Assembly: GCA_029263415.1 (NCBI GenBank) | Contig: JAJCXN010000012.1 | Span: 1 to 64,000, forward strand | Direction: 5' to 3' | From: Acidobacteriota bacterium | Lineage (GTDB): Bacteria; Acidobacteriota; Thermoanaerobaculia; Multivoradales; Multivoraceae | DNA: 64,000 nt | Shown: piece by piece, positions 20,539 to 23,725 of the stretch | How the letters are laid out: each line of letters starts with the position of its first letter | How positions within the stretch are numbered: position 1 is the stretch's first letter | Made by a program: the position numbers and the translations under genes | Notes under the pieces: model-generated | Seen by the model: the letters and a program-made list of their open reading frames with translations, nothing else | The model's database searches: none | What the model was told of the DNA's origin: nothing

Positions 20539-22512
<1,974 letters not shown>

Positions 22513-22525
22513 CTAGCTGCGCTCG

Positions 22526-22675
22526 CTTCCCTACGCCGGTGTTAGCCGGTGGTTTGCCGCCTGCAAGTTCCCATGGAGGGTGCTGACAGCAACAGGTTCT
22601 AGGGCTTCGGCGTCTGCCTCTGGAACTACGGTCCAGCGAAACGTCATCTCAGGCCGTGCTTGCGGCCACACCAGA
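22526..22675 (-). promoter_or_regulatory. TPP riboswitch (THI box) of thiC, with an enlarged middle
   Basis: Minus strand, just upstream of thiC. The pyrimidine-binding arm is clear: P3 stem GGCCG/CGGCC followed directly by the invariant CUGAGA (22652-22647). The pyrophosphate arm is clear at the 3' end: CCGG-CUAACA-CCGGCGUAGGGAAG (about 22549-22526). Closing bases GCUC/GAGC can form P1. In a standard aptamer CUGAGA is followed within about 20-45 nt by CCUGAU and P5; here 97 nt intervene. A GAACCUG (22599-22593) is present, but it is not adjacent to P5. Extra sequence carrying an AGUUCC/GGAACU inverted repeat fills the middle. It is probably functional or recently altered; see findings. Confidence 0.8.
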
Positions 22676-22787: not shown

Positions 22788-23678
22788 CTAGGCGGGTGCG
22801 AGAGCCTTGAGTGCTTCGAGGTCGGGCTTGGGTGAGCCGTCTGGCCTGAATGCTTGGATCGCCACGTGGTCCGCACCTGCGTCCCAGTGACCTTGAATGC
22901 GCTGTTGAATTGCGTCCCGATCACCCCATGCGACGAGTGCATCGACCAGGCCGTCGCTGGCGTTCCAATCTTGCCAATCGTCGGCAGTGAAGCCGAGTTC
23001 AAGCAGGTTGTTCTGATAGTTCGGCGCGCGCAGGTAGACCTTCAGGTGACGGCGCGCAAGTTCTCTAGCAGTGGTGGCGTCGGTCTCATGGATTACCATC
23101 TGTTCGGGACACAGCCAAGGGCCCGTACCTAGGATTCCACGAGCGATCTTGGTGTGTTCGGGTGTTACCAAGTAGGGGTGGGCGCCGCGGCACTCCTCAG
23201 CGGCGAGCTTGAGCATGAGCGGGCGCAAGGCAGCAATGACGATCGGTGCATCAAACTCCGGCCTGGGCCCGTGGTAGAGCGCATCAGGCAGGCCCTGAAG
23301 CACGCTGCGCATCTTCGCAACTGGTTTTTCCCATTCGTGACCACGCAGCCGGGTGACCAAATGCGGGTGTGAGACACCCAGACCGAGAATGAAGCGCCCA
23401 GGTAAGAACTCAGAGATGGTCTGGTGAATTGACTTGATCAGGTGTAGATCGCGCGCATAGATGTTGGCTATACCGGTGGAGAAGATCAGGCGGTTGGTCT
23501 GGGCGCCAAGATAGCCAATGAGGGCGAGTGGATCTCGACCGACCGCCTCAGGCAGCCACCAAGCTGAGTAACCCAGGTCTTCAATGGTCTTTGCGAACCC
23601 CACGCACTCGGCTGCGGACATGCCATCGGGTGTGGCCCAGACGCCAAGTGTTCCGGGGTGTTCGAGGGGGCTGCTCAT
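22788..23678 (-). CDS. LLM-class F420-dependent oxidoreductase (MSMEG_4141-like)
   Basis: 296 residues from the ATG at 23678, which has GGAG at good spacing (an ATG 12 bases upstream does not). TIM-barrel LLM fold: LGVWATPDGMSAAECVGFA start, GYSAWWLPEAVGRDP, LIFSTGIANIYARD, and PGRFILGLGVSHP for cofactor binding. The pattern fits the F420 subgroup related to MSMEG_4141 rather than FMN enzymes. The reaction is unknown. It follows an HSL-type esterase by 47 bp and a SMUG1-like glycosylase on the same strand, probably one transcript ending at 22682-22704. Confidence 0.82.
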   Translation of the reverse strand: MSSPLEHPGTLGVWATPDGMSAAECVGFAKTIEDLGYSAWWLPEAVGRDPLALIGYLGAQTNRLIFSTGIANIYARDLHLIKSIHQTISEFLPGRFILGLGVSHPHLVTRLRGHEWEKPVAKMRSVLQGLPDALYHGPRPEFDAPIVIAALRPLMLKLAAEECRGAHPYLVTPEHTKIARGILGTGPWLCPEQMVIHETDATTARELARRHLKVYLRAPNYQNNLLELGFTADDWQDWNASDGLVDALVAWGDRDAIQQRIQGHWDAGADHVAIQAFRPDGSPKPDLEALKALAPA

Positions 23679-23725
23679 GGGAGACTCCAAAGGAAACGGA
23701 CCAAGGACGGTCCGACGTTGACTGG

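Follow-up and report, generated by a model that had tools for sequence, protein, structure and literature searches.

A putative thiC TPP riboswitch variant with a helix inserted in junction J4-5 in Acidobacteriota, and candidate counterparts in other bacteria

The TPP riboswitch is the most widespread riboswitch and among the best studied. The size of its pyrophosphate junction is generally regarded as constant. Crystal structures identify U39-A43, U59, G60, C77, G78, and A80 as the highly conserved positions of the aptamer, and a UNRN sequence in L5 is needed for docking on P3 (PMC3764141). In fungal TPP riboswitches the two guanines that pair in J4-5 are reported to lie at a conserved distance of 18 (PMC5882874). 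Structural variation is treated in passages of Barrick and Breaker 2007, which describe the optional P3a stem of TPP riboswitches, state that riboswitches tolerate nonconserved stem-loops at specific sites, and report that genuine low-scoring matches had insertions at unusual positions; those passages do not name the TPP J4-5 as such a site (PMC2258182).

Here we describe an element upstream of thiC in a 64,000-nt stretch of DNA from an Acidobacteriota bacterium (contig JAJCXN010000012.1), referred to throughout as the window. It shares with the TPP riboswitch/THI element (RF00059) the conserved positions, the order of P2-P5, a UNRN L5, the optional P3a, and the site before thiC, and differs from it in holding 43 nt with a hairpin of its own between G60 and P5. 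This insert is like P3a, as described in the passages cited above, in being a variable, dispensable hairpin at a fixed point beside a ligand-contacting junction, where it makes a three-way junction; P3a, however, branches off on the pyrimidine side, between P3 and P2, whereas the insert lies in J4-5 on the pyrophosphate side, and the window carries both. TPP aptamers with an expanded L5 (L076 and L099 from Halomonadaceae; L123, L128, and L151 from Planctomycetes) likewise have a longer pyrophosphate arm, but there the added nucleotides lie in the loop of P5, J4-5 is a normal AU, and the G-G distance grows through the loop only. We found no description of a helix in TPP riboswitch J4-5 in the openly accessible literature searched.

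Aptamer architecture at the thiC leader

An earlier note, made from the sequence alone, had reported pyrimidine and pyrophosphate arm motifs upstream of thiC. All of them are present on the minus strand, in the 5′-to-3′ order P1, P2, P3, CUGAGA, a 47-nt block, GAACCUG, 43 nt, P5, CGUAGGGA, and P1:

22516-22677, minus strand: the whole TPP riboswitch aptamer, bounded by its two P1 strands and including the P3a arm and the J4-5 insertion (RF00059, 19.1 bits; core identity)
22677-22674 and 22524-22521, minus strand: P1 strands GCUC and GAGC, 4 bp
22652-22667, minus strand: P3 hairpin GGCCG-CAAGCA-CGGCC, the pyrimidine arm (sequence; conserved in relatives L002 and L003)
22647-22652, minus strand: CUGAGA, the J3-2 T-loop expected to hold the pyrimidine ring (sequence; RF00059 consensus positions)
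22600-22646, minus strand: P3a arm (optional in the family), then P2 3′ strand and J2-4, 47 nt
22636-22620, minus strand: P3a inner stem CUGGA/UCCAG (sequence)
22593-22599, minus strand: GAACCUG, comprising the last part of J2-4, the 5′ strand of P4, and the invariant guanine of J4-5 (G60, E. coli numbering; invariant in the relatives' alignment)
22550-22592, minus strand: segment inserted in J4-5, a hairpin UUGCUGUC...GGCGGCAA (22592-22554) plus 4-nt linker ACCA (absent from 17 sister-genus leaders; folding)
22536-22549, minus strand: P5 hairpin CCGG-CUAACA-CCGG, whose L5 (UAAC) is of UNRN type (sequence; conserved in relatives)
22528-22535, minus strand: CGUAGGGA, comprising J5-4 (C77, G78) and the P4 3′ strand (sequence; conserved in relatives)
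22438-22462, minus strand: hairpin UUCCUU...AAGGAA covering the probable Shine-Dalgarno sequence (AAGGAA, 22443-22438; folding prediction)
20542-22431, minus strand: thiC, the putatively regulated gene (Pfam ThiC_Rad_SAM and ThiC-associated; about 80% identical to family homologues)

The aptamer precedes a thiamine gene on its own strand, the downstream thiC (ThiC_Rad_SAM, 2e-185; ThiC-associated, 2.5e-32), whose probable start is an AUG at 22431. A UGAGA T-loop directly follows P3 (22652-22647), the pyrophosphate-site residues U59, G60, C77, G78, and A80 are supplied by ACCUG and CGUAGGGA, and U39-A43 are also present, such that every position listed as highly conserved (PMC3764141) is kept. 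Helices P2-P5 and the docking loop are in place (P3, 5 bp; P5, 4 bp; P4, CC/GG), and the L5 sequence UAAC fits UNRN. P2 keeps GGU/GCC; the weak spots are a P1 of just 4 bp and a U-C mismatch at the outer P2 pair.

The distance from CUGAGA to P5 is exactly 97 nt, the figure the earlier note had given. Its suggestion of extra sequence in this middle holds for 43 inserted nucleotides; the remainder is a normal P3a arm, P2 3′ strand, J2-4, and P4 strand, the last being the GAACCUG that had been taken for a stranded motif and is the ordinary J2-4/P4 5′ strand of the RF00059 consensus. The insertion point falls immediately after the invariant G of GAACCUG, within J4-5, at the pyrophosphate site. As a result, G60 and G78 are 59 nt apart (22593 to 22534) versus 18 ordinarily, a spacing rule that derives from fungal members and that variants elsewhere also exceed. 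The insert folds on its own (minimum free energy, −17.7 kcal/mol; z = −2.25) and would turn the P4/J4-5/P5 internal loop into a three-way junction of P4, insert, and P5. The AGUUCC/GGAACU inverted repeat remarked on earlier does exist, at chance level (1 observed, 1.1 expected from shuffles) and with its halves in two different stems; we discarded it as a P3a-insert contact, given its chance frequency and its absence from L002 and L003. No further copy of the insert was found in the window's genome at three or fewer mismatches.

Scanning the window with RF00059 at its gathering cut-off (54.3 bits) finds nothing, and relaxed filters give 19.1 bits over 22683-22510 on the minus strand, with 47 nt skipped as a local end; the covariance model thus does not score the element as an ordinary aptamer. 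The 35-bit shortfall concerns a detection threshold rather than a biological feature, and plain members of the same families also fall just below it (44 to 53 bits). Against the whole 6.9-Mb genome, RF00059 has no match at E values up to 10, this element included, and the element would therefore normally stay unannotated. Among scanned J4-5 variant loci, 4 of 18 pass the cut-off. A plus-strand match to Histone3 (RF00032; 20 bits, cut-off 34) was judged spurious. A pattern search of this genome and two relatives for a second TPP switch gave nothing convincing, and an extra match in G000, on contig 23, was taken as chance.

Filled and plain leaders among relatives

We compared thiC leaders from four genera of the family: g1 (the window), g3 (L003), g4 (L002), and the sister genus g2. 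The 17 g2 leaders carry an ordinary aptamer with J4-5 reading AAA, so that 3 nt separate GAACCUG from P5, versus 43 in the window, and those scanned score 48 to 57 bits. The long middle is therefore unusual against these relatives, and is not common to all the thiC leaders compared. Alignment to the plain relatives maps the extra segment to one point, the GAACCUG/P5 interval. L002 and L003 carry inserts of 23 and 51 nt at this same point, hairpins unlike that of the window; the three inserts have diverged in sequence and length, yet all fold (z = −2.3 for the window, −2.4 for L002, and −1.6 for L003). They also share a layout, with no nucleotide before the helix and with P5 preceded by a 4-nt linker whose last base is A (ACCA, GCUA, and GACA in the window, L002, and L003, respectively). 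The block of P3a, P2, and J2-4 measures 47 nt in the window, 36 to 49 nt in the plain relatives, 47 nt in L002, and 66 nt in L003.

Over 54 nt, the aptamer cores of the three insert-bearing leaders are 94 to 98% identical, while fourfold-degenerate sites of thiC are 40 to 53% identical; sequence comparison thus indicates strong purifying selection on the core and argues against decay. In the ThiC tree the window pairs with L002 (support, 97) and L003 joins the plain genus (support, 83). Together with the shared insert layout, this suggests that the insert was gained once, at the family's base, and was lost in g2. The plain g2 aptamers (L004-L021) sit directly on thiC, with the P4/J4 sequence AGGGA about 8 nt from the ATG, at Shine-Dalgarno distance; once bound, TPP would thereby mask the ribosome site with no separate expression platform. 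Leaders L185-L187 and L197-L199 of genus g139 look similar in how the aptamer lies against the gene.

Genus g139, an Acidobacteriota genus of another family (f40), holds both filled and empty sites. In three species (G300, G247, and G464; loci L185-L187) the thiC aptamer contains a J4-5 insert of 44 to 45 nt with two tandem hairpins, which would form a four-way junction, and in four species (L197-L200) the site is empty and reads GAACCUG-AU-CCxG. Two filled loci, L185 and L187, score 25.0 bits with RF00059, versus 54.6, 52.0, 44.4, and 37.1 for the plain ones; in the clearest comparison (against 54.6 and 52.0) filled and empty congeners differ by about 27 bits, which attributes the low score to the insertion. 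The G247 and G464 inserts are single-copy at three or fewer mismatches, in a search whose pattern missed the more diverged G300 copy, and hence those found are no obvious dispersed repeats.

J4-5 helices in other bacteria

A single pattern scan that covered about 85,000 species genomes, followed by hand curation, yielded 64 TPP aptamers in which UGAGA lies upstream, P5 is intact, and J4-5 holds a folded hairpin, a set in which labels of metagenome-assembled genomes (MAGs) may be wrong and some loci are near-copies (e.g., L082 and L152). Paenibacillus contributes 36, Dethiobacter 6, and other Bacillota 16; the remainder are single to few cases from Lysobacterales, another Pseudomonadota MAG, Omnitrophota, Desulfovibrio, and Thermoanaerobaculia. 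Mean insert folding z is −2.9 in a wider, less strict automatic set of 77. The inserted helix shows compensatory pairs across 16 aligned Paenibacillus inserts (0 of 500 shuffles as high by every measure), and 91% of cells in that alignment are paired, versus 35 to 45% when slid. Seven of the 10 downstream open reading frames tested encode thiamine proteins (two ThiG, two ThiW, Thi4, ThiC, and ThiT/YuaJ), two encode ABC-transporter parts, and one (L082, probably in the wrong frame) has no match.

Two junction layouts recur, one with the helix against P4 and a 4- to 5-nt 3′ linker (Acidobacteriota, Lysobacter) and the other, seen in most Bacillota, with the helix against P5 and a 3- to 5-nt 5′ linker whose first bases are usually AU or UU, which suggests more than one origin of J4-5 helices. 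Class-wide and phylum-wide scans gave mostly chance matches beyond the loci named here, and matches lacking TGAGA were set aside as chance. We also excluded L057, L071, L127, and L155, in which GAACCTG occurs incidentally inside P3 of normal switches, and loci with a 15-nt J4-5 that is unfolded or weakly folded (L107, L121, L142, L156, and L163; L073, L137, and L160). The first five of these are Bacillota TPP-like leaders whose J4-5 has no fold of its own, a different J4-5 variant. L062, L076, L099, L123, L128, L146, and L151 were removed as L5 expansions; in Halomonadaceae (L076, L099) and Planctomycetota (L062, L123, L128, L151), L5 has grown by about 20 to 40 nt, replacing the UNRN docking loop.

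Proposed function and alternative readings

We put the probability at roughly 85% that the element is a functional thiC TPP riboswitch whose J4-5 5′ strand is opened by, and tolerates, an inserted helix, a reading based on the motifs and their placement, the filled and empty relatives, selection on the core, and recurrence in other bacteria. The earlier note had offered an inserted hairpin that still lets the arms meet as one of three options, and the J4-5 placement, the folding, the unlike hairpins at one point, the empty sites, and core selection bear this option out. Ligand binding, the direction of control, and the outward orientation of the helix we infer as follows. The TPP pyrimidine would sit in the UGAGA T-loop as usual, U59-G60 on one side and C77-G78 on the other would hold the Mg-bound pyrophosphate, and L5 would dock on P3. 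The added hairpin would project outward, outside the pocket, leaving G60 and the contact residues in place, and TPP binding would lock P1 and lower thiC translation.

Some observations speak against this reading: the unconstrained fold is favored over the aptamer fold by 6.6 kcal/mol in the window, although the difference is 5.5 in L003 and 5.6 in a plain relative; P1 is short and the outer P2 pair is mismatched; and the full leader folds no better than shuffles (z = 0.21). The probable Shine-Dalgarno sequence lies in the local hairpin in both predicted folds. The thiC start codon is predicted to be open in the free fold and to be paired once the aptamer fold is imposed, as would suit an OFF switch acting on translation, and no terminator was found between the aptamer and thiC. 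Just upstream of the aptamer, a terminator-like hairpin and U-tract (TGTGGCTTGAGCCACA ACTCTTTT; 22705-22682, minus strand) probably ends the upstream gene (22788-23690), and the sequence between them revealed no sigma-70-like promoter.

The helix could instead be an adaptive module that tunes the switch, through rigid stacking on P4 or P5, folding speed, or affinity, or that interacts with a protein or a different region of the RNA. Hairpin formation that persists under sequence turnover and the two recurring layouts speak for this, but neither a loop nor a receptor sequence is conserved among the inserts, close sister genera do without an insert although their target gene is the same, and genus g139 holds both empty and filled sites; we consider such a role possible but unlikely. 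More speculatively, J4-5 may serve at the ligand site as a natural port for insertions, exploited repeatedly and independently to build three- and four-way junctions, with the helix tuning the switch or adding a second input, an idea we regard as doubtful.

Decay, in which the insertion broke the aptamer and thiC lost TPP control in this lineage, had also been proposed. It would account for the very low RF00059 score (19.1 bits), the weak P1, and the P2 mismatch, but the core has stayed nearly invariant across three genera in which fourfold sites of thiC have not, insert folding is kept despite sequence change, like insertions elsewhere precede thiamine genes, and the score follows from the insertion itself, as the g139 loci illustrate (25.0 versus 54.6 and 52.0 bits); we therefore find this option unsupported and very improbable. 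Clean filled and empty sites in g139 would also be left if the leader had received a copy of a dispersed palindromic repeat or a mobile element, but the inserts are single-copy in the window's genome (at three or fewer mismatches) and in G247 and G464, and we give this little credence. Least probable is an extreme P3a or alternative P5 with no J4-5 insertion: P3a length does vary in the family, as the passages on P3a report (PMC2258182), and some loci of the same scan are L5 expansions (L076, L099, L123), but here the 47-nt P3a block is within the range of plain relatives, and both P5 (CCGG-N6-CCGG, UNRN loop) and GAACCUG are preserved and align with theirs in the same register. The alternative fold raised earlier is unsupported.

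Returning to the riboswitch with a tolerated J4-5 helix, the comparative sequence evidence indicates that the window element is a genuine TPP riboswitch variant under conservation, one of a set that is scattered and seldom annotated. J4-5 helices in Acidobacteriota, Paenibacillus, Dethiobacter-like Bacillota, Lysobacter, and others suggest that the ligand site tolerates an extra branch. Rfam annotation misses most of these variants, and thiamine regulons now overlooked would be recovered by a revised covariance model in which a J4-5 stem is optional. Congeners with filled and empty sites provide a natural comparison for the effect of an inserted helix on an aptamer.
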